Shown here: one piece after another, positions 28,066 to 43,518 of the stretch | Position numbering within the stretch: the stretch's first letter is position 1 | Layout of the letters: the number at the start of each line of letters is the position of its first letter | DNA from: a virus | DNA: 64,000 bases | Direction: 5' to 3' (one strand) | IMG/VR virus record: IMGVR_UViG_3300036715_001783 | Coordinates: 16,695-80,694 of that record | Translations under genes and position numbers: made by a program | The notes under the pieces: model-generated | The model's database searches: none | Told to the model about the DNA's origin: nothing | The model's input: only the letters and a program-made list of their open reading frames with translations

Positions 28066-30192
28066 ATGACAGAAGTTACAAGTCCAAAAACCCACTATTT
28101 ACGGACGGGGAACAGTATTAGAGTGGTAAGTGCTGCAAATATCAACATTTGTGATGGGTTACCTCCTGGTAATTATATTGTACAGTTTGACCAACAATCT
28201 GGTGAATATTTTTTGGAAACAGTTGATAACTTTACTATTCCAACAAAATTGTACGGTAATGTATTTGACCAAGCAGAGCGTATTATCTCTACGTTTATGG
28301 ATCGGCCTAATACAACTGGAGTATTGTTAACTGGTGAGAAAGGTAGTGGTAAAGCACTTCGTGTTGACCAATCTGTGTATACTCCAATGGGAGAACGTAA
28401 AATTGGTGAGTTGGTTGTAGGTGATATGATTTATGGTGCAGATGGTAAATTAACAACTGTATTGGGAGTATACCCACAAGGTGTGCGAGATATGTTTGAA
28501 GTTACATTTAACGATGGTAGCCAAGTTATTGCAGATGGTGAACATTTATGGGATGTAAAACAAACAACTCGTAGCCAAGTCGGATTTCCAAAACAATCCA
28601 CCAAAAATCGAATTAAATCAACTATCCCAAAAATTCTTACAACAGCACAAATTAAACAGGCACTAAACGCAGGGGTTAAACATGTGGTGCCTTTATGTGG
28701 CCCTGTAGAATTTCCAAAAAGTGATGTTGATGCTGATAGATATACAATTGGGTTGTTGATAGGGGATGGTTGTTTGTGTAATCCAACATTAACAATTAGC
28801 TCAAATGATCCAGCTATCGTAGAACACTTACAGATAGACAATATAATTAAATATACAAGTGGTGTTGATTATAGATTTGTTGACTGTAAACATTTAGTGG
28901 ACCAACTAACTTTGTTGGGGTTAAGAGGTACAAGAAGTAATACTAAGTTTATCCCCGAAAAATTAAAGTACGATTCGGTGGAAAACCGTTTTGCATTATT
29001 ACAAGGGCTAATGGACTCTGATGGAACAGTTAGTAAAAGAGGGGGCATTACATACACCACCGTTAGTAATATCTTAGCAAATGACATGGTGTGGTTGGCA
29101 AGATCTCTCGGATTCAGAAGTTCAATCCAACACACTCGTGCACCTTCATATACACACAATGGAATTAAAAAAATTGGACAATTAGCATATACAGTCCAAT
29201 TAACTGGAGAGCATACTGATAAGGTCTTTCGTTTAGAAAGAAAACAGGCAAGAGTTAAACCATGCTCATCAAATACTAAAACTATTGTGGATATTAAATC
29301 AGTTGCTCCCGATGAAGCTGTATGTATTTTGGTAGACAATGAATCTCATTTGTTTGTAACAAACGATTTTACAGTAACTCACAACACAATGCTCACAAAA
29401 GTCATCAGTACAACATTAGCTGCCAAAGGAATTTCAACAGTCGTTATTAACGAGTGTATGTATGGAGACTTATTCAACAAATTTATTCAGATGATTGATT
29501 CTGAATGTGTAGTGTTATTTGATGAGTTCGAAAAAGTATATCCAACAGATGTCCAAGAAAAAATGCTGACATTGTTGGATGGGGTATTTCCATCAAAGAA
29601 ATTATTCTTATTCACTAGCAATTCATCTAGCCGGATTAATTCACACCTGATGAACCGTCCTGGTCGTATTTTTTATGTGTTGAAATATGCTGGCCTAGAC
29701 AGTGAGTATATTACTCAATACTGTAATGATGTGCTTGTCGATAAGTCTTATATTGATGAAATTTGTCGATTGTCACTATTGTTCTCTGCATTTAACTTTG
29801 ATATGCTTAAAGCATTAGTTGAAGATATGAACAGATATAACGAATCTCCAACTCAAGTTATGAAGCTGTTGAATGCCATTCCAGAAGATACTGGAAACAA
29901 TAGTTTTGATGTTGAATTGTCGTACAAAGGTGAATGGTTTAACAAAGGTCAGTTGGATGATCATGGCGCTTGGAGTGGCAATCCACTGGATCCACGAGGG
30001 GTTGGTATTGAATACCGCAATCCAAACCCAAACGAAGATAATGATTCCAATTATTGGTTAACAGTTCTCCTGTTTAGTGAGAACCTCACCAGAGTGGACA
30101 TCGAAACTGGTACGTTTGAATATGCAAAAGATGATTTTGTACTTCGACTGAAACGAAGCAAAACATTGTCGTACCAATACTCTGCTTTCTAA
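28066..30192 (+). CDS. AAA+ ATPase split by an intein
   Basis: The 708-codon ORF encodes an AAA+ ATPase (364 aa after splicing). The Walker A motif reads GEKGSGK, then the intein (codons 97-440), then TMLTK, so the mature P-loop is GSGKT. Walker B 'VVLFDEFEKV', sensor 1 'LFLFTSNSSSR' and the arginine finger region 'LMNRPGRIFYVLKY' follow. Such stand-alone AAA+ proteins in phages may act in DNA metabolism or as chaperones; the exact role is unknown. The enzyme can work only once the intein is removed. AAAGGAG precedes the start and a terminator follows. Confidence 0.88.
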   Translation: MTEVTSPKTHYLRTGNSIRVVSAANINICDGLPPGNYIVQFDQQSGEYFLETVDNFTIPTKLYGNVFDQAERIISTFMDRPNTTGVLLTGEKGSGKALRVDQSVYTPMGERKIGELVVGDMIYGADGKLTTVLGVYPQGVRDMFEVTFNDGSQVIADGEHLWDVKQTTRSQVGFPKQSTKNRIKSTIPKILTTAQIKQALNAGVKHVVPLCGPVEFPKSDVDADRYTIGLLIGDGCLCNPTLTISSNDPAIVEHLQIDNIIKYTSGVDYRFVDCKHLVDQLTLLGLRGTRSNTKFIPEKLKYDSVENRFALLQGLMDSDGTVSKRGGITYTTVSNILANDMVWLARSLGFRSSIQHTRAPSYTHNGIKKIGQLAYTVQLTGEHTDKVFRLERKQARVKPCSSNTKTIVDIKSVAPDEAVCILVDNESHLFVTNDFTVTHNTMLTKVISTTLAAKGISTVVINECMYGDLFNKFIQMIDSECVVLFDEFEKVYPTDVQEKMLTLLDGVFPSKKLFLFTSNSSSRINSHLMNRPGRIFYVLKYAGLDSEYITQYCNDVLVDKSYIDEICRLSLLFSAFNFDMLKALVEDMNRYNESPTQVMKLLNAIPEDTGNNSFDVELSYKGEWFNKGQLDDHGAWSGNPLDPRGVGIEYRNPNPNEDNDSNYWLTVLLFSENLTRVDIETGTFEYAKDDFVLRLKRSKTLSYQYSAF
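28354..29385 (+). mobile_element. class 3 intein with LAGLIDADG endonuclease
   Basis: The 344-aa insert begins with Ala (not Cys/Ser) and ends 'TVTHN' before Thr +1. Block B reads 'ADGEHLW', with Trp two residues after His; block F carries Cys in 'EAVCILVDN'; Thr precedes the final His-Asn. This Trp-Cys-Thr triplet defines class 3 inteins, in which the block F Cys replaces residue 1 as nucleophile. 'IGLLIGDGCL' and 'LLQGLMDSDGTV' are the two LAGLIDADG motifs of a homing endonuclease. The insertion point in the Walker A loop is a classic protected homing site. Confidence 0.9.
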
Positions 30193-33505: not shown

Positions 33506-33739
33506 ATGTCTGACAATAAACATTATAAAATTAACTTGTGGAAGGTATTAGCTGTTGTGGTATTGTTAGCTGTTATTGACTTGTTAATTTCAAATTACAC
33601 ATCATACCAATCAAAAATTGATTGGTATGATGTGTGGTATTCCATCACAAATTTCATATACGATGACAGTGTTCCTGTTGAAACTTGTATGAAAACTCAA
33701 TGTGATGACCCCAAGCTTCCTTTTTGGAGCAAATTATGA
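33506..33739 (+). CDS. small membrane protein, 77 aa
   Basis: AAGGAG (33493-33498) serves ATG 33506. The product has one membrane span (about residues 11-30) and a Tyr/Trp/Asp-rich outer part with two Cys. A perfect 18-bp inverted repeat lies inside the gene. Its end overlaps the next start (ATGA). Not recognised. Confidence 0.6.
   Translation: MSDNKHYKINLWKVLAVVVLLAVIDLLISNYTSYQSKIDWYDVWYSITNFIYDDSVPVETCMKTQCDDPKLPFWSKL
33597..33635 (+). repeat. perfect 18-bp inverted repeat in a CDS
   Basis: ACACATCATACCAATCAA (33597-33614) and its exact complement (33618-33635) are separated by AAA. It lies in the coding region of the 77-aa membrane protein and would form a long RNA hairpin there. Confidence 0.95.
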
Positions 33740-34198: not shown

Positions 34199-34264
34199 CC
34201 CCCTATTGACATTTAATTTATTTCATGTATAATAGGGTTTTTAAATTAATCAAAAGGAGATAAT
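34199..34264 (+). repeat. left 66-bp direct repeat with promoter (CRISPR cassette edge)
   Basis: This 66-bp segment recurs at 42363-42428 with a single mismatch (A/G). It contains TTGACA (34206-34211), TATAAT (34228-34233; 16-nt spacer) and the ribosome site AAAGGAGATAAT that serves cas8f. It is the promoter of the cas operon. No other promoter pair in the window is this similar except the tandem pair at 58.4 kb, so it reads as a duplication that frames the cassette. Confidence 0.95.
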
Positions 34265-34265
34265 T

Positions 34266-35339
34266 GTGACAAAAGAAAAGGTTCCAAAGGTAAAAACCTG
34301 GGATGAGAAGTGGGGGAATTTAACAGATGATGCTATACTGGTGTCTGGTAATAATGCTGTTCACTATTCATTCAAATATATCAATTCAAACTTACAAGGT
34401 GGAATAAGATTATCTCCATCTGATGTGATATTAGATTCACCATATGTTTCTGGTATAACTGCTATGTGTTATCAACAACTACCTGTTGAATACTTTGCGT
34501 CATCTGTTATCACAATTTATAGTTATTTAGATTACCTTAATAACTCAAATCCAAGTCACCCACACGTTTCACTATTTACAACCAACCATACAGCTAGGTA
34601 TGAATATGGTACAACTGATTTATCTGGAACAAATTGTCGAATGAGACAAGTTTTGATACCTATTGGTGATGGGTACATAAGTGCTACACCAGTTAGTCCA
34701 GCAGGATTTAATTACCTAATGAAACAATTGAATGACCAAATTGAACCCAAAGAACGGTTAACTACTTATTTCATCACGTATGGTGGTGCAAATGGACGGA
34801 ATGTTGGGTGGGAAGCATGCAAAAAACATACCTATGCACTGTGTATGTCAGCTCCAACTGAGGATAGAAACATCCAACATGCGTATTCTATTTTTTACAA
34901 AGGTGTTGACTTGTCTTTGCCTAAACATATTGTACGTGAGTTATTTAATTTGCGACTACACCCCGACATGGTGGGATATACCAAAAAAGAAAATGATATA
35001 TTATCAAGTTTCATCAATGTGGTGTTGCACAAAGCTGTATTAGCTCGAGACATATTAATATCACAGAAGGATGCATTATATGATGCAGAACTATTTGAAA
35101 ATGTTACTGCACCACATAGTTATATTTTTGAATTACATGAGTCAGTAACAAACGATCTTATACAAAGTGGACTAATAAATCCAACTAAACGGAATAAGGA
35201 ATGGAAAGGGTTGTTGGCAACTAAGATTGTGAGCATGTTGGTGGATGAGAAGATCACTATTAGTGGGCAAACACGGTCATTAAATCTTGATGATGACCAA
35301 ATTGCTGAACTATCAGATAAGATGAGAAAAATGCTATGA
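34266..35339 (+). CDS. cas8f: Cas8f (Csy1), type I-F Cascade large subunit
   Basis: GTG start placed 9 nt after AAGGAG. The 357-aa protein is shorter than the roughly 430-aa Csy1 of Pseudomonas, chiefly in the C-terminal half. The recognisable core is 'FITYGGANGRNVGWEA' (about 169-184), matching the Csy1 G-G-x-x-P-Q-N region that helps read the PAM, and a helical C-terminal domain. Order and spacing (overlap of 4 nt with cas5f) match a csy1-csy2-csy3-csy4 operon. It would recognise the PAM on target DNA and hold the crRNA 5' end. Sequence identity is low, so the call rests largely on context. Confidence 0.82.
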   Translation: MTKEKVPKVKTWDEKWGNLTDDAILVSGNNAVHYSFKYINSNLQGGIRLSPSDVILDSPYVSGITAMCYQQLPVEYFASSVITIYSYLDYLNNSNPSHPHVSLFTTNHTARYEYGTTDLSGTNCRMRQVLIPIGDGYISATPVSPAGFNYLMKQLNDQIEPKERLTTYFITYGGANGRNVGWEACKKHTYALCMSAPTEDRNIQHAYSIFYKGVDLSLPKHIVRELFNLRLHPDMVGYTKKENDILSSFINVVLHKAVLARDILISQKDALYDAELFENVTAPHSYIFELHESVTNDLIQSGLINPTKRNKEWKGLLATKIVSMLVDEKITISGQTRSLNLDDDQIAELSDKMRKML

Positions 35340-36139
35340 ACAATATATTAATAATTCCAAGAATTGAAGTGGTCAAATATAATGTATTGGCTTCTCAGTG
35401 GTTAATTTCACCAACCCCTGTACATGCCATAAACATGTTTGTCCACAATTTACAACTTAAAACTGGTATTGTATGCTCACGGGTATCCATTGTGCACCAT
35501 GATTTTTCATACAAGGCTGCTATTGGGAAATATAATGCACCCGCATTTGAAAAGCCAAAGGGAGCATCGTTTATTGATAAGTTAGATTATCCAAGTGACG
35601 GAAAGCCATTAATAGGGCCAAAATCACTATCATTTCAACCTAATTTTTATGGAGACATGACTATTAGTTTGATTATCGAAATTGACGATAGTGATAAGCA
35701 CACAGACGTGGAAGATTTTCTACATACAGCAAAAATTGCTGGTGGGGATATTATATCACACAAACCAATAAAGGTGTGTAATATCGCTGATGTATTTAAC
35801 CACATCAAAACTGGTTTCTTCGTCGAAGATTATAGCCACCTAATTGACCCTTCAAAAAATCAATTAGAACAATTGGTTACAACAATATCTAATAGCAAAG
35901 ATTGGATAAGTGCTGCCACATTGGGGTATGCTAAACTAACACAAGAGATTCACAAGCCAGGAGTACGAAATGGTGTTAAACATTGTTTCGTAGAGCCTTT
36001 AGTGGGGCTAATAAAATATATTCCAATTCACAACACCAAGGATGTTTCTGATATTCGATTTTGGAATTATGAGTGGAACACCCCATCAACTTTTATATGC
36101 AAACAAGAAGCCCTAATTTTAAATTCAGAGGAGAATTAA
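35336..36139 (+). CDS. cas5f: Cas5f (Csy2)
   Basis: The 267-aa protein starts 'ILIIPRIEVVKYNVLAS', as in Csy2 ('LLVIPRLQVQNANA'), followed by 'PTPVHAINMFVHNL' and 'VCSRVSIVHHDF' that match the Csy2 pattern. A C-terminal aromatic 'RFWNYEW' also fits. It is about 50 aa shorter than usual. It should cap the 5' end of the crRNA beside Cas8f. ATGA overlap with cas8f. Confidence 0.88.
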   Translation: MNNILIIPRIEVVKYNVLASQWLISPTPVHAINMFVHNLQLKTGIVCSRVSIVHHDFSYKAAIGKYNAPAFEKPKGASFIDKLDYPSDGKPLIGPKSLSFQPNFYGDMTISLIIEIDDSDKHTDVEDFLHTAKIAGGDIISHKPIKVCNIADVFNHIKTGFFVEDYSHLIDPSKNQLEQLVTTISNSKDWISAATLGYAKLTQEIHKPGVRNGVKHCFVEPLVGLIKYIPIHNTKDVSDIRFWNYEWNTPSTFICKQEALILNSEEN

Positions 36140-36140
36140 T

Positions 36141-37196
36141 ATGTCAAAACAAGTTTTTAAAAAGACCCCAAGTGTGTTAGCATTTCAACGGGCTGTATTA
36201 GCAACCGATGCTTTAATTTACAGTGTGTTGGATACCGGTATTGAGTTACCAGTACAAGTGACAGAAGTTGGAATCAGAGGTACTCAAAATATTAATGGTT
36301 CAATAAAAGAAGAAGTGCGAAATCTTCAATTGGTGGACGCTGCTAAAACTGCACCAAATACAAAGTTTGTTAAATTTGTATTTGGTATTAAGTTTATTGA
36401 TATAAGAAAATCATTACACTCCATCGCAAGTGGTAAAGAGGATAGCAAACAAGACGTAAGTGATTTCAAACAAAGTTTAGATGAATTTTTGAACAGAGTA
36501 ACTGGTCAAGAAGATGGAGAATTAGAAATCACTGGTAGTGATGGAATTTTAGATGTTGCAACTCGTTATGCCAGAAATATTGCAAATGCAAAGTGGTTGT
36601 GGCGTAATCGGTTATATGCTTCATCAATCACAACAACCGTTTCTGTTACTGATATCAAATCAAAACAGGCTCCTACAGTGTTTGTGTTTGATTCACTTGA
36701 GGTAGAATCTAAACATTTTGATGATTTTACTAAGGACGAAGAAGAACTTGGTAAACTAATCAACGATAGCTTATTAGGTACACGATTGTTAACCATCGAA
36801 GTATCAAGTGTTGTGGATTTTGGGGTTACAGGCGTGTTTGAAGTATTCCCATCCCAGTTATTCATTGATACTGATGCACTACCAAAAAATAAAAAAGGTA
36901 AATTTTTGTATGCAATCAAAAATAGCAATGATAGCATTGGCCAAGCAGCCATTAGAGATCAAAAAATAACCAATGCGTTGAGAACAATTGATACTTGGTA
37001 CAAAGAATTTGATCAAGTAAAAGATCCTATTCCAGTTGAACCAAATGGTGCAAGTTTAACCCATATGGTCTTTTTTAGAAAAGGTGCAGAATCGTCCTTT
37101 GATATTATTAAACGATTGAACACCATTGATGTTGATAGTGATGAAGGTAAGTTCTTTATATCCGCATTAATTCGTGGCGGCGTTTATTCATCATAA
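36141..37196 (+). CDS. cas7f: Cas7f (Csy3), crRNA backbone subunit
   Basis: At 351 aa this is a full-length Csy3 with close motifs: 'PSVLAFQRAVLATDALIYS', 'VRGT'-like 'IRGTQNING', 'ATRYARNIANAKWLWRNRLYA' (P. aeruginosa reads ARRYAHNLANARFLWRNR), 'VFEVFPSQLFID', 'KITNALRTIDTWY', 'VEPNGAS' and the end 'ISALIRGGVYSS' (host: IANLIRGGVF). Six copies line the crRNA in the Csy complex. It is the best conserved Cas protein of the locus and fixes the subtype as I-F. GAGGAG precedes the start. Confidence 0.97.
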   Translation: MSKQVFKKTPSVLAFQRAVLATDALIYSVLDTGIELPVQVTEVGIRGTQNINGSIKEEVRNLQLVDAAKTAPNTKFVKFVFGIKFIDIRKSLHSIASGKEDSKQDVSDFKQSLDEFLNRVTGQEDGELEITGSDGILDVATRYARNIANAKWLWRNRLYASSITTTVSVTDIKSKQAPTVFVFDSLEVESKHFDDFTKDEEELGKLINDSLLGTRLLTIEVSSVVDFGVTGVFEVFPSQLFIDTDALPKNKKGKFLYAIKNSNDSIGQAAIRDQKITNALRTIDTWYKEFDQVKDPIPVEPNGASLTHMVFFRKGAESSFDIIKRLNTIDVDSDEGKFFISALIRGGVYSS

Positions 37197-37207
37197 GGAA
37201 TAATAAC

Positions 37208-37780
37208 ATGACAATTTTGCATTATGTTGATTTAACACACTCCCGGTTCAATAATATTCCACAAGATAAGTCTAATATATTCAGACTATTGCATGGTATT
37301 TTTAAATCAGATAATCATTTATACAACGTATTCGGGTTAGCTTTTATTAAAAATGGAGTTAGAGTGTTTTGTGAAGATATTGGTGGGTTAGAAGATTTGT
37401 GGACAGAACTAAAAAATAACGATTCTGTAAAAGAATCATTTTATTTAGATAGACCAAATTCTGTTAATTTATCAAAATATATTGGCGGATGGATTTCGCA
37501 TTCAAGGTTCTCTATCCCAACAAGAAAACAAGATAGACACCCAACAGGTCCACTACGAAGAAAACGATTATTAGAAGCAGATGAAAATCCTAACATTTCA
37601 TATGTAAATGTTGGTTCAAAATCACAACAAACCCATTTCAGATATTATGTGAATCATCAATTCCATAATGATTGGAATTATGAGAGTGGTTGGGAAACTA
37701 ATGGTTATGGATTGTCATCATCTACAAGGTTGGTTGCTTTTCCATATTCAATTGGTAGAGAGTATCCGATTTATGAATGA
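37208..37780 (+). CDS. cas6f: Cas6f (Csy4), crRNA-processing endonuclease
   Basis: 190 aa, as in Csy4. His29 in 'FRLLHGIF' is at the same position as the catalytic His29 of P. aeruginosa Csy4; 'VGSKSQQTHFRYYVNH' matches the SQSTGQHFRLFIRH strand holding the catalytic Ser; 'GPLRRKRLLE' is the Arg-rich helix that grips the hairpin; 'NGYGLSSSTRLVAF' is the C-terminal strand. The residues matching Arg102/Gln104, which read the two bases at the stem foot, are Arg100 and Ser102. It cleaves each repeat and stays on the crRNA. A solitary repeat lies 32 nt after its stop. Confidence 0.95.
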   Translation: MTILHYVDLTHSRFNNIPQDKSNIFRLLHGIFKSDNHLYNVFGLAFIKNGVRVFCEDIGGLEDLWTELKNNDSVKESFYLDRPNSVNLSKYIGGWISHSRFSIPTRKQDRHPTGPLRRKRLLEADENPNISYVNVGSKSQQTHFRYYVNHQFHNDWNYESGWETNGYGLSSSTRLVAFPYSIGREYPIYE

Positions 37781-37812
37781 CCCAACATTCACAGGGATAA
37801 TGTTATCTAAGC

Positions 37813-37840
37813 ATTAGTCATCGTGTAGATGATTTAGAAA
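37813..37840 (+). repeat. solitary CRISPR repeat between cas6f and cas1 fragment
   Basis: A 28-bp copy identical to the array repeats, starting ATTAGTCATCG and ending TTTAGAAA. It lies 32 nt after the cas6f stop and 527 bp before the array's first repeat. In the cas transcript it would be a Cas6f cleavage site. Its presence left of cas1 suggests that an older array edge or a repeat-mediated deletion produced the present layout. Confidence 0.97.
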
Positions 37841-37865
37841 TCCCATTGATAAAGTTAGAGGACAA

Positions 37866-38318
37866 GTGAACAAATCTACTAATGTGAATGAATTGATGGG
37901 ACATGAAGGAGCATTTGCAAAGAAACTATTTTCACTGTTAGCAACTGGTTTCAACATAACTAATTTTTCAAGACAACGAAATGAACAAGATTCTACACAA
38001 TCTATTAATGTTATGATTAATAACTATTTAGATTATGGTAATTATTTGGCCTATGGATACGCTGCTGTAGTTCTAAATGGGTTGGGATTGAATCATGGGT
38101 TTCCGTTGTTGCACGGTACAACCAGAAGAGATGCTTTAATTTTTGATGTAGCTGATTTATTCAAAGATGGGCATATAATGCCCACTGCTTTCGAATATGC
38201 TACATCAGGAACAAAACAAACAGGACAACTATATAGACAATTAGTTACCAAACATTGCTACGATTCAGGGGTGTTAGATGACGCATTTTTATCCATGAAA
38301 TCCATCGTTTCTTTGTGA
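37866..38318 (+). pseudogene. cas1: truncated Cas1 (C-terminal catalytic domain only)
   Basis: The 150-aa product aligns with the alpha-helical catalytic domain of type I-F Cas1 (about 325 aa in hosts): 'MGHEGAFAKKLFSL' (Glu14, the metal Glu), 'YLDYGNYLAYGYAAVVLNGLG', 'PLLHGTTRRDALIFDVADLFKD' (His83 and Asp94/Asp97). All three metal ligands remain, but the N-terminal beta domain used for dimerisation is missing: a TGA inside the solitary repeat closes the frame upstream. The GTG start has a weak GAGGA site, so it may be expressed. Spacer integration is probably lost; a minimal or altered Cas1 cannot be excluded. Confidence 0.9.
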
Positions 38319-38333
38319 TTGTTACCTATGTTG

Positions 38334-38362
38334 TTGATTTTAGCAGTAAAATGTGCTAAACT
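38334..38362 (+). promoter_or_regulatory. array promoter abutting the first repeat
   Basis: TTGATT (38334-38339) and an extended -10, TG-C-TAAACT (38354-38362), with a 17-nt spacer. The start of transcription would fall at about the first base of repeat 1 (38368). Only 49 bp separate the cas1 stop from the array, so there is little room for an adaptation leader with IHF sites. Confidence 0.6.
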
Positions 38363-38367
38363 ACAGC

Positions 38368-39355
38368 ATTAGTCATCGTGTAGATGATTTAGAAACGCAT
38401 GAATAACGCTACGCGGCATACCGTCATATTAGTCATCGTGTAGATGATTTAGAAATGACATGACAGTTGACATGACAGGTGATGTGAATTAGTCATCGTG
38501 TAGATGATTTAGAAATGATGATGTGATGTTGTCATACAGTCGTGATAATTAGTCATCGTGTAGATGATTTAGAAACAAACAAACCATGCCTGTTTTACCC
38601 ACTACTTATTAGTCATCGTGTAGATGATTTAGAAAAATTCGGTAGTGGCTCTTCAGCACAATCAATGATTAGTCATCGTGTAGATGATTTAGAAAACCAT
38701 ATGAAGGAGTGGTAGCACCATCGGGGCATTAGTCATCGTGTAGATGATTTAGAAACACTTGGAGGATATTTCTTAGATGGACACAAAATTAGTCATCGTG
38801 TAGATGATTTAGAAATAGACCCATTGTCTGTTCCACCAGTATGGTAAATTAGTCATCGTGTAGATGATTTAGAAAATCAAATAATAAAATATTTTTGATT
38901 GATAAATATTAGTCATCGTGTAGATGATTTAGAAAAATGGAGTAATAGTGAGTTTGACAGCTGATGTATTAGTCATCGTGTAGATGATTTAGAAATCAAA
39001 GTATCGCCATATAATCAGCTCCTTCTAATTAGTCATCGTGTAGATGATTTAGAAAATTATATGCAAAAGGTAGATTTACGTTAGTTGATTAGTCATCGTG
39101 TAGATGATTTAGAAAACATAAGTACACATATGGGTATTTGGTTAATAATTAGTCATCGTGTAGATGATTTAGAAAAATCAATTTTTGATATAGATGTGTA
39201 ATTTGAAATTAGTCATCGTGTAGATGATTTAGAAAAGCATACGGGTACAAAGGAGAAGTTGGATTCAATTAGTCATCGTGTAGATGATTTAGAAAACATG
39301 AATAATATACAATCATCGTCTGCAATAATTAGTCATCGTGTAGATGATTTAGAAA
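38368..39355 (+). CRISPR. type I-F CRISPR array, 17 repeats and 16 spacers
   Basis: Repeats of 28 bp recur with an exact 60-bp period; all 17 are identical, and every spacer is 32 bp. The repeat (ATTAG, stem TCATC, loop GTGTA, stem GATGA, then TTTAGAAA) has the type I-F form: GTTCACTGCC-GTATA-GGCAG with 8-nt handle CTAAGAAA in the classic version. This sets the transcription direction as + strand. The stem foot is a T-A pair where the classic repeat has C-G. Spacers are all different. None matched the rest of the window by eye; targets are unknown. Confidence 0.99.
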
Positions 39356-39379: not shown

Positions 39380-42358
39380 ATGTTTATAGTAATTGTATCA
39401 TCATGTATTAAGAAAGCAAAAGGTAGAACAAGAAGAGTATTAGATCAATATGCTACCCGGATAGAGTCGAATGCTTGGCAAACACCAATAACCAATATTG
39501 GATTACAACAACTGCACAAGGACCTAAAAAAGGTAGCAACTAGACACACATCAGTAACTTGTTTTGTTAATAGTGGGTACAAACAACTTCAAAAATTATG
39601 GACTGTTGGATCTGAAGCTAGCAAATACAACTTCCAACAAAGTGTGTTCAAGACTAAAGATGGTAGCTCATACCGGTCAACTGTCCCACCACACATCCGC
39701 AAAATTTCATTATTATCCAAAACCGCTGGATATGCTCATGATTTGGGCAAAGCCTCTGTTAAATTTCAAAATAAATTAATAGGGAAGGGTTCCATTGGAG
39801 ATGATATCCGACATGAGTGGATATCAATGAGAGTTCTCCAACAACTTAGAAAAGGAAAATCTTGGCAACAGGCATGGGACTCCCCTATAAACATTGAGTT
39901 TGATGGGTTTATGAAAAATGGGATGACTCAGATCAACGATGTGTTGGATTTTTGTGTGGCTACTCATCATGGACTATTCTGCAAGTATGACACAGAGACT
40001 CGGGAAATAAACAACGATGTAAATAATTTTCACGTAAGAAATGTAAATTTTAAATCATCAGATTTTCAAGTAGCTGGTAACATTGACCCTGATTTATTAT
40101 CTAAAATATCATCAGGTGAAAAAAGATTAAACAAAATGATTTCGGGGGCAACTCCTCTTGAATTGGAATACCTAGCTTGGATTTCCAGAGCTATGTTAAT
40201 TATGGCAGACCAAGTTGTTTCTGCAACACACAAAAACAAATACAAAAAAAGTGAGTTATACGCTAATACCGATAGAATACTAGGTCAAAAAAATGGTCCA
40301 CTTAATCAACCATTAGATTATCATTTAACTAATGTTGGTGAGTATGCATCTAATTATGCATACAAGTTTCTAACAGAAGTTGACTATCCAGCTTTATCCT
40401 CACAAACTATCAGCAATATTTTAACAAAATCAACAGATACCAGATTTGTTTGGCAGGATATTGCTTGTGAACATTTTATAGCTCAACCTGAATCAAATTT
40501 TTTAATTTTCAATATTGCAAATACAGGATGTGGGAAAACTCTAGCAAACCTAAAACTTGCAACAACTATTTCAAAAAATGAAGAACAAACAAGAATATCT
40601 ATCTGCCTCAATTTACGCTCTCTAACTCTACAAACTGGTAGAGAATATAACCGTATATTGAACCCACATGAAATAGACGCATTTGCTGTCCTTATAGGGG
40701 ACAAAACTACCCAACAACTATTTGATAATGACTGCGACGAAAATATTACCGAACCTAATATTGACATCGACGAAAACTTCCATATAAACAAGGAGTTACC
40801 TGAATGGTTGGAATTATTTTGTGATCTGTCATCAAATAGGAACACTATATTAGCGGCACCATTATTAGTGTCCACTGTAGATTATTTAATAAAAGCAGCT
40901 ACCCCAAGTGCACAAGGCCACCATGTTGCAAGTTTAATTAGAGCAGCCTCATCTGATTTAATATTAGATGAAGTTGACGGATATGAACCTAATCAATTGG
41001 TAATTATATGTAAATTGATTGAATTAGTTTCTTTTTTCGGTAGAAACGTAATATGCTCGACCGCTACTTTATCCACACCTGTTGCTGATTTAATATTGAT
41101 AGCGTTTAATAGAGGTAGAGAAGCTCGACAATTGTTGATTGATAGTAATCACACATCCCAATTTGGAATTGTGGATAATATAATTAAACCATCATCAATA
41201 TCATTTGGGGAAGATGTAAAAACTCATTACATGAACACAATAACAACCAAAAATAATTTAAACAATCAAGTAATAACAAAACTTGCAAAATTAACTCGTG
41301 TTCCAGAGGTAACAGAAGAATGTTGGTTTAATTCAATAGCAGAGGATTGTGTTGAACACCATAACAACCACCAGTGGATATACAAAGAAGCAACAGTTTC
41401 AATTGGATTGATACGAGTTGCTAATATTAAACATGGAATTGCCTTATCCAAATTCTTGACACAAACCCTATCAAACGTAAAGGTATGTTTTTATCACGCA
41501 AATGATTTCAAAATCGCTAGGTTTCACAAAGAACAAATATTAGATAGATTATTAACTAGAAAAAATCCCAACAAGGTGTATTCGGATTTGGATAGTGAAT
41601 TGGAGCCTGGAAAAGATATAATGTTTATAGTTGTAGCAACTCCTGTTGAAGAAATAGGAAGAGACCATGATTTTGATTGGGCTATTATTGAGCCATCAAG
41701 TTGCTCATCTATTATACAAACAGCTGGTCGAGTCAATCGACACCGTCTAATTAAGCAAACAGTTCCTAATATTAGTATATTGCAATACAATCATCGAAAT
41801 ATTAACAACCACAACAAATCAACAAAGATATCATTTGTGAGACCTGGATTGGAATGTCAATTAATTGGAGGAACATCTCACCCATCCAAAGATATAGAAC
41901 AATTATTGCCATGGGATAATGATGTATTGCAAATATCGTCAACGTTAAGATTTAATAGTGTGTTTGCAAGTTGTGATGATACAGCAATATCAAATACCAC
42001 TACTCACGCTATTAAAAGGTTTTTTTCTACTAAGCACACCCTATTATTAAAAAATAAATTTTATAATGACTATAGGTTGCGTGATAATGAACAACAAACT
42101 GAAATTATATTAGGCTGGGAAAATGGTGACACTTATAAATTTTGTGAGTATAAACAACTACCCGTTATAAGGACCAATAAAGTATTAGTTGATCCACCAT
42201 ATGGAAATACTTGGCTATCATTATCACACCTCGAGTTGAATAAAAAATGTAAGGCTAATGATGTTCCATACTATATTGGTAAATCATTATCCGTAAGAAA
42301 AGTTAAAGACGAAACAAGCCTTCACCACGATTGGTCATTTGGTTGGTGGATGGAATAA
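39380..42358 (+). CDS. cas2-3: Cas2-Cas3 fusion, type I-F helicase-nuclease
   Basis: The 992-aa protein begins with a Cas2 domain (about 1-95; 'RRVLDQYATRI' and 'NAWQTPITNIGLQQLHKDLKK' match the Pseudomonas fusion). An HD nuclease follows ('AGYAHDLGKASVKFQNKL', His120-Asp121, and 'VATHHGLF'), then an SF2 helicase with 'NTGCGKTLANL' (Walker A, about 380), 'LILDEVDGYEP' (motif II, about 530), 'CSTATLSTP' and 'QTAGRVNRHR' (motif VI). It is recruited by Cascade to degrade target DNA. It lies downstream of the array, away from cas1. TCGGAGGG provides a strong ribosome site 24 nt after the last repeat. Confidence 0.96.
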   Translation: MFIVIVSSCIKKAKGRTRRVLDQYATRIESNAWQTPITNIGLQQLHKDLKKVATRHTSVTCFVNSGYKQLQKLWTVGSEASKYNFQQSVFKTKDGSSYRSTVPPHIRKISLLSKTAGYAHDLGKASVKFQNKLIGKGSIGDDIRHEWISMRVLQQLRKGKSWQQAWDSPINIEFDGFMKNGMTQINDVLDFCVATHHGLFCKYDTETREINNDVNNFHVRNVNFKSSDFQVAGNIDPDLLSKISSGEKRLNKMISGATPLELEYLAWISRAMLIMADQVVSATHKNKYKKSELYANTDRILGQKNGPLNQPLDYHLTNVGEYASNYAYKFLTEVDYPALSSQTISNILTKSTDTRFVWQDIACEHFIAQPESNFLIFNIANTGCGKTLANLKLATTISKNEEQTRISICLNLRSLTLQTGREYNRILNPHEIDAFAVLIGDKTTQQLFDNDCDENITEPNIDIDENFHINKELPEWLELFCDLSSNRNTILAAPLLVSTVDYLIKAATPSAQGHHVASLIRAASSDLILDEVDGYEPNQLVIICKLIELVSFFGRNVICSTATLSTPVADLILIAFNRGREARQLLIDSNHTSQFGIVDNIIKPSSISFGEDVKTHYMNTITTKNNLNNQVITKLAKLTRVPEVTEECWFNSIAEDCVEHHNNHQWIYKEATVSIGLIRVANIKHGIALSKFLTQTLSNVKVCFYHANDFKIARFHKEQILDRLLTRKNPNKVYSDLDSELEPGKDIMFIVVATPVEEIGRDHDFDWAIIEPSSCSSIIQTAGRVNRHRLIKQTVPNISILQYNHRNINNHNKSTKISFVRPGLECQLIGGTSHPSKDIEQLLPWDNDVLQISSTLRFNSVFASCDDTAISNTTTHAIKRFFSTKHTLLLKNKFYNDYRLRDNEQQTEIILGWENGDTYKFCEYKQLPVIRTNKVLVDPPYGNTWLSLSHLELNKKCKANDVPYYIGKSLSVRKVKDETSLHHDWSFGWWME

Positions 42359-42362
42359 TATA

Positions 42363-42428
42363 CCCCCTATTGACATTTAATTTATTTCGTGTATAATAGG
42401 GTTTTTAAATTAATCAAAAGGAGATAAT
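42363..42428 (+). repeat. right 66-bp direct repeat with promoter (CRISPR cassette edge)
   Basis: This copy of the 34199-34264 segment differs at one base between the -35 and -10. TTGACA (42370-42375) and TATAAT (42392-42397) precede the ribosome site for the membrane protein at 42432. It starts 5 nt after the cas2-3 stop. A recombination between the two copies would delete the entire cassette and leave one intact promoter. Confidence 0.95.
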
Positions 42429-43467: not shown

Positions 43468-43518
43468 AAGATAACCAATTAACTTTCGCATCAAATGCGA
43501 AAGTTAATTGGTTATCTT
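43468..43518 (+). terminator. 24-bp perfect hairpin
   Basis: AAGATAACCAATTAACTTTC and four further bases (43468-43491) pair without mismatch with 43495-43518 around the loop CAA. It lacks a T tract of normal length but follows the structured, gene-free stretch and could end or protect that RNA. It could equally be a protein-binding palindrome. Confidence 0.65.

Follow-up and report, generated by a model that had tools for sequence, protein, structure and literature searches.

A solitary CRISPR repeat within the truncated cas1 of a phage-borne type I-F operon, a probable recombination scar

Introduction

Lone repeats in phage type I-F operons are already known from ICP1. Two CRISPR loci have been described in phages of this type (PMC5665941), and the second one, placed between cas2-3 and csy1, contains four repeats in ICP1_2005_A, two in 2017_Dha_A and a single one in ICP1_2011_A (KC152959). 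Since other isolates carry two or four repeats at that place, the lone repeat of ICP1_2011_A represents an array reduced to one; there, the ribosome-binding site of csy1 is immediately preceded by a leader with one degenerate repeat (L010:3747-3774). RNAs of the CreR type are encoded by mini-arrays in which a second, degenerate repeat follows a short guide that matches a cas promoter. Single I-F repeats have also been described in viruses as the SRUs of Racr RNAs, for which binding and cutting by Cas6f are expected and which are intergenic and not linked to cas genes, frequently placed immediately after a promoter of their own (PMC10651486). At the level of gene content, a large survey found that the majority of phage CRISPR systems have no acquisition genes (PMC7162821).

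The locus described here belongs to a single metagenomic virus contig, the 80.7-kb IMG/VR record IMGVR_UViG_3300036715_001783, and was analysed in a stretch of 64,000 nt corresponding to its positions 16,695-80,694 (hereafter, the window). As in ICP1_2011_A, a phage-borne I-F operon is accompanied by a lone repeat. However, the repeat of ICP1_2011_A has its own leader, carries 2 changes relative to the array repeat and does not disrupt a gene, in a phage whose cas1 is full length, whereas that of the window is unchanged, leaderless and located in a truncated cas1; its left flank encodes the start of Cas1 and resembles the end of a leader by its last bases only, which separates it from the lone array remnants of ICP1 type. 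It shares with the Racr SRUs the condition of being a single I-F repeat in a virus where Cas6f binding and cutting are expected, but it is the repeat of its own system and stands in its own cas operon, within cas1, outside the definition given for SRUs (PMC10651486). The features of a CreR-type RNA are also missing, as there is no second repeat nearby and the match to the promoter is weak and mismatched in the seed. Finally, like the phage systems devoid of acquisition genes (PMC7162821), it retains interference genes and an array after the loss of the acquisition module; unlike them, part of cas1 remains and a CRISPR repeat marks the breakpoint. What sets the locus apart is an unchanged, leaderless repeat in place of half of cas1; a search of open-licence papers for phage cas1 truncations and for lone repeats within cas operons did not bring up this arrangement. 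Loss of an acquisition gene appears here with its breakpoint still readable at the locus, and the fact that this breakpoint is a CRISPR repeat would connect the lost adaptation with recombination involving the array.

Retrieval and annotation of related loci

Single-protein scans with Csy3, Cas1 and Cas2-3 gave no close relatives. Related loci were retrieved with alignment queries, and 15 + 7 viral loci, 80 bacterial loci, 4 plasmids and 3 phage records were annotated with purpose-built models.

A type I-F operon with a broken adaptation gene

All the elements of the operon are located on the + strand, in the order promoter, csy1, csy2, csy3, cas6f, solitary repeat, cas1 fragment, array and cas2-3 (Table 1), and the promoter is presumed to serve the entire operon. 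The genes that define type I-F are present (cas8f, cas5f, cas7f, cas6f and the fused cas2-3), and so are the characteristic features of its repeats, namely a length of 28 nt, a 5-bp stem, a GNNNA-type loop, an 8-nt handle and 32-nt spacers. Of a full-length Cas1, on the contrary, only the C-terminal half is found, apart from a start of 13 codons. On this sequence basis the system is classed as type I-F with a broken adaptation gene, whose interference genes and array appear complete.

Table 1. Features of the CRISPR-Cas operon (window coordinates)
Feature	Position	Strand	Evidence
Sigma70-type promoter (TTGACA-16-TATAAT) and ribosome-binding module before csy1	34199..34264	+	12/12 consensus
csy1 / cas8f	34266..35339	+	PADLOC Cas8f E 8e-21
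csy2 / cas5f	35336..36139	+	Pfam Cas_Csy2 E 3e-12; PADLOC Cas5f E 3e-27
csy3 / cas7f	36141..37196	+	TIGR02566 E 3e-66
cas6f / csy4, crRNA-processing endoribonuclease	37208..37780	+	94.5 bits, HMM of 40 relatives
cas1 5' remnant (putative)	37773..37812	+	Profile of Cas1f start; like variants start the Cas1f of relatives
Solitary CRISPR repeat	37813..37840	+	28/28 identity; replaces ~145 cas1 codons
cas1 3' remnant, C-terminal half	37841..38318	+	TIGR03637 E 6e-40, positions 167-305 of 307
Leader-like short stretch, cas1 to array	38319..38367	+	Sequence
CRISPR array	38368..39355	+	17 identical 28-nt repeats, 16 spacers of 32 nt, 60-nt period
cas2-3 (Cas3f, N-terminal Cas2 domain)	39380..42358	+	TIGR02562 E 3e-186; PADLOC Cas3f E 2e-201

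The repeat motif of the array, ATTAGTCATCGTGTAGATGATTTAGAAA, has 18 exact matches in the window, all of them on the + strand, 17 in the array and one alone (0.00 expected by chance according to shuffled sequence). No further copies exist on the 80.7-kb contig, and an exact-repeat scan of IMG/VR found the same repeat on no other contig. The solitary copy forms its stem between 37818-37822 and 37828-37832, followed by the 8-nt handle UUUAGAAA (37833-37840). The preliminary description of this DNA had reported an unchanged repeat 32 nt beyond cas6f, which is confirmed by its identity at all 28 positions to each of the 17 array repeats and by the gap of 32 nt that separates it from the end of the cas6f stop at 37780. 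The same description had placed the repeat upstream of cas1, a position that has to be corrected, given that the repeat lies within a truncated cas1 with the first 13 codons and one base on its left.

Regarding the spacers, none of the 16 matches the cas1 remnant, and comparison of the array with phage records yielded weak low-complexity matches only. Spacer 14 (39176-39207) matches its own contig at an intergenic hairpin (33585-33622, - strand); the first 14 and the last 15 nt are identical, the stretch that separates them differs in length by 3 nt, a CC lies directly upstream and the score is 47 against a shuffled maximum of 31. This spacer was probably acquired from a related phage, or from the present phage before a change at the site. 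The promoter and ribosome-binding module, 66 nt long, has a second copy of 98% identity at 42363-42428, so that both copies flank the csy1-cas2-3 operon as if this were a cassette between direct repeats.

The two pieces of cas1

The ORF first called cas1, which starts at GTG 37866, corresponds to the C-terminal half of the protein only. On the right side of the repeat, NPIDKVRGQVNKSTNVNELMGHEG aligns gap-free to full Cas1f from about the first codon, and the homology continues to the normal end of Cas1. On the left side, a frame opens with an ATG at 37773 that overlaps the stop codon of cas6f, an arrangement shared by many relatives; it encodes MNDPTFTGIMLSK and contains one further base, the first of the following codon. 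This peptide fits the '(I/L)(M/L)LSKR' start of Cas1f, which among relatives reads ..(I/L)(M/L)LSKRA(N/C)VFYLE, with IMLSKR or close variants. When a profile of the Cas1f start was run over the six frames of the window, the score of the heptamer TGIMLSK was equalled or exceeded by 8 of 85,227 heptamers, and 38 of 372,006 heptamers of shuffled sequence reached it; the chance of such a match is about 1e-4 per position and a few times 1e-4 over the usable frames. The assignment of the 5' remnant as the putative start of cas1 thus combines about five residues with the position and the frame of its 13 codons.

Both pieces share strand and reading frame and follow each other in the correct order, and the repeat interrupts the frame of the gene with two in-frame stops, TAG and TGA. 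The missing stretch has a median of 145 residues (139-152 against most relatives), about 435 bp, and no other Cas1 match or piece is found on the contig. The 3' half has remained open and retains conserved residues of the C-terminal and catalytic region, an intactness that could be explained equally well by a recent break or by selection of the fragment. A C-terminal Cas1 fragment could be translated from GTG 37866, which is preceded by AGAGGA.

Gene order in related loci

The comparison with related loci points to cas6f-cas1-array as the ancestral order. Forty-seven loci have cas1 downstream of cas6f in the same orientation, and cas1 is full length in 46 of them, the only exception being L051, in which it is frameshifted. 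The distance between both genes ranges mostly from a slight overlap to about 30 nt, with 94 nt in L044 and 626 nt in L013, and no copy of the repeat was found between cas6f and cas1 or inside cas1 in any of the 47. When an array is present on the contig of a relative, it usually begins some 100 nt past the cas1 match. It is the presence of a full cas1 in 46 of the 47 loci, usually directly behind cas6f, together with the lack of a repeat there and the usual position of arrays after cas1, that argues for an old cas6f-cas1-array order.

The closest proteins found belong to Acinetobacter-type I-F loci (for example, p1DB053 and pANC7974.1), which coincide with the window up to the array (cas8f-cas5f-cas7f-cas6f-cas1-array) and have a similar repeat (TCATC..GATGATTTAGAAA). 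In these loci, however, cas1 is intact, there is no repeat in or before it, and cas3f is divergent. The phage of the window differs in this respect, with cas2-3 behind the array on the same strand. The state that preceded the break is shown by no close relative. In another viral I-F locus (L025:9941-10447) the match to Cas1 begins only at model position 146, with a break that carries no repeat.

These comparisons bear on the two origins that had been suggested for the solitary repeat in the preliminary description. The possibility that cas1 sits inside a former array does not agree with the relatives, where 46 of 47 have a full cas1, no repeat precedes it and arrays come after it. The alternative of a deletion running from a repeat into cas1 holds in part: the breakpoint does join repeat and cas1, but the break occurred within cas1, whose 5' end is placed on the left of the repeat.

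Cas6f and its predicted cleavage of the solitary repeat

The Cas6f of the window is divergent, with marginal scores in Pfam and PADLOC, and was recognised, with 94.5 bits, by an HMM made from 40 relatives from which it had been left out. Its AlphaFold model has a pLDDT of 86, and the best structural matches are Csy4. In the alignment of relatives, His29, Ser137 and Tyr167 occupy conserved columns, and, combining this with the alignments, we take them to be the catalytic histidine, the active-site serine and the tyrosine of Csy4. In sequence and model, the enzyme looks catalytically complete. The stem of the repeat is fully paired in 27 of 27 aligned repeats of relatives, and three of its five pairs show changes on both sides.

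Given the conservation of this stem and the identity of the lone copy to the array repeats, recognition by Cas6f is predicted, and the cut would be expected after nt 37832. Such a cut had been proposed to part the csy mRNA from the RNA of cas1, array and cas2-3, and perhaps to serve autoregulation. Nevertheless, the first repeat of the array (38368) would separate what is upstream from the array anyway, so that cleavage at the solitary copy would free the csy1-4 mRNA from the cas1 fragment only. No positive evidence of autoregulation was found, and the structure of the RNA around the repeat is not unusual (z -1.0). No specific regulatory role is supported for the solitary repeat.

Origin of the solitary repeat

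Taken together, the solitary repeat is probably a scar left by recombination in the cas1 of a phage I-F operon. It would most likely be the mark of a broken cas1 in the first place and an RNA-cutting site only secondarily. According to this model, the first half of cas1 in an ancestral csy1-csy2-csy3-cas6f-cas1-array phage operon would have been shortened by about 145 codons, whose place was taken by exactly one CRISPR repeat, which may have been copied from the array through a template switch or left behind by a duplication followed by deletion. Each junction falls precisely at an end of the repeat, neither a leader nor a spacer accompanies it, and cas1 retains both its ends. The left flank in cas1 and the leader before the first array repeat both end in AGC, three bases that the left junction may have used, and a right-anchored alignment of the two flanks scores higher than 99% of operon positions taken at random (p 0.011). 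This suggests that the left junction was formed at the leader-repeat boundary, either by template switch or by tandem duplication and subsequent deletion. Another model is not favoured: exchange with an array of structure S1-repeat-S2 whose spacers derive from cas1 would account for the exact ends on both sides, but it needs CC at 37779-37780, where the sequence is GA. This judgement takes the 32 nt left of the repeat, as every present spacer has 32 nt, and assumes for the system the CC motif suggested by the match of spacer 14.

As regards the consequences of the scar, acquisition of spacers is not expected from a Cas1 fragment that lacks the N-terminal half. No full Cas1 could be made, and the array would be frozen unless a helper supplied Cas1, while the interference proteins and the array would persist. 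Cleavage of transcripts at the repeat by Cas6f would be a by-product of the scar and not the reason for its presence. Judging from its genes, the phage therefore probably carries an I-F system whose adaptation gene is dead and whose array is frozen; the loss of cas1 can be regarded as tolerated because acquisition genes are absent from most of the phage CRISPR systems surveyed (PMC7162821).

Selection could also have kept the repeat because Cas6f processes the polycistronic mRNA there. Cas6f would cut 52 nt after its own stop and stay on the hairpin, stabilising or limiting the csy1-4 message, and the perfect hairpin and handle, the complete-looking enzyme and the single strong promoter before csy1 are in favour of it. 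We consider this autoregulatory origin unlikely, since all 47 relatives lack a repeat between cas6f and cas1, the array already supplies a downstream cut, the surrounding RNA has an ordinary structure, and a repeat hosted by a disrupted gene does not need a regulatory explanation. The general implication is that a lone repeat beside a short cas gene calls for checking whether the gene is disrupted before regulation is proposed. It is decidedly unlikely, moreover, that the repeat is the last one of an array formerly located directly behind cas6f, with cas1 having moved behind or into that array. Canonical I-F loci do have the array after cas6f, including ICP1 and several of the loci examined, and ICP1 isolates illustrate how the second array of an operon shrinks to a single repeat; in the I-F branch of the present phage, however, cas1 directly follows cas6f and the array follows cas1, and the cas1 codons on the left of the repeat imply that the gene was already there. 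An assembly artefact, that is, a misjoin or collapse at the repeat, would be conceivable in a metagenomic virus record, repeats being classical misjoin points. We regard it as very unlikely, as the 17 identical repeats of the downstream array were assembled without collapsing and the two flanks fit together as parts of one cas1, with order, strand and frame correct.

Two further readings make the RNA a guide or an inhibitor. In one of them, the array of the phage or of a rival would have acted as template for the repair or rearrangement of a broken cas1, and the resulting RNA, composed of the handle and cas1 sequence, would now guide the phage's own complex against related phages with an intact cas1, which is highly improbable. 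The other, the most improbable of all, sees in the repeat an RNA guide or inhibitor, either, together with the cas1 sequence behind it, a CreR-like repressor of the csy promoter or a Racr-like RNA anti-CRISPR. Degenerate mini-arrays do exist in the promoter region between cas8f and cas3f of bacterial relatives, and the first 11 nt of the guide match the csy1 promoter at 8 of 11 positions behind a CC (1.5% in the null). Against it, a short guide would lack its closing repeat, as no second copy lies within 500 nt, mismatches fall at positions 1 and 4 of the guide, and the longest exact run from the start is no better than chance; with a p of 0.015 in a self-chosen region and mismatches in the seed, the promoter match was treated as chance. 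As to the Racr-like version, the SRUs described are not associated with cas genes and often lie directly behind a promoter (PMC10651486).

Further repeat copies and minor observations

Copies of the repeat with 1-9 mismatches occur in the divergent cas8f-cas3f promoter region of bacterial relatives (for example L012:8834-8861, L013:8951-8978, L045:9960-9987 and L066:9822-9849), some of them followed by a short spacer of about 20-30 nt and a second stem. Candidates were seen in 14 of the 35 loci examined, several of them no better than shuffled sequence, and they resemble cas-regulating mini-arrays in position and form. In Vibrio phage 1.161.O, whose annotated array lies between cas3 and csy1, an unannotated second array of about three repeats is located between csy3 and csy4 (L015:14468-14616).

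Elsewhere in the window, a perfect 24-bp inverted repeat with a 3-nt loop is found at 43468-43518, in a region poor in open frames. At 28066-30192, a 708-aa ORF resembles, as judged by eye from its translation, an ATPase with an intein-like insertion that ends in ...VTNDFTVTHNT, after which the Walker region continues.
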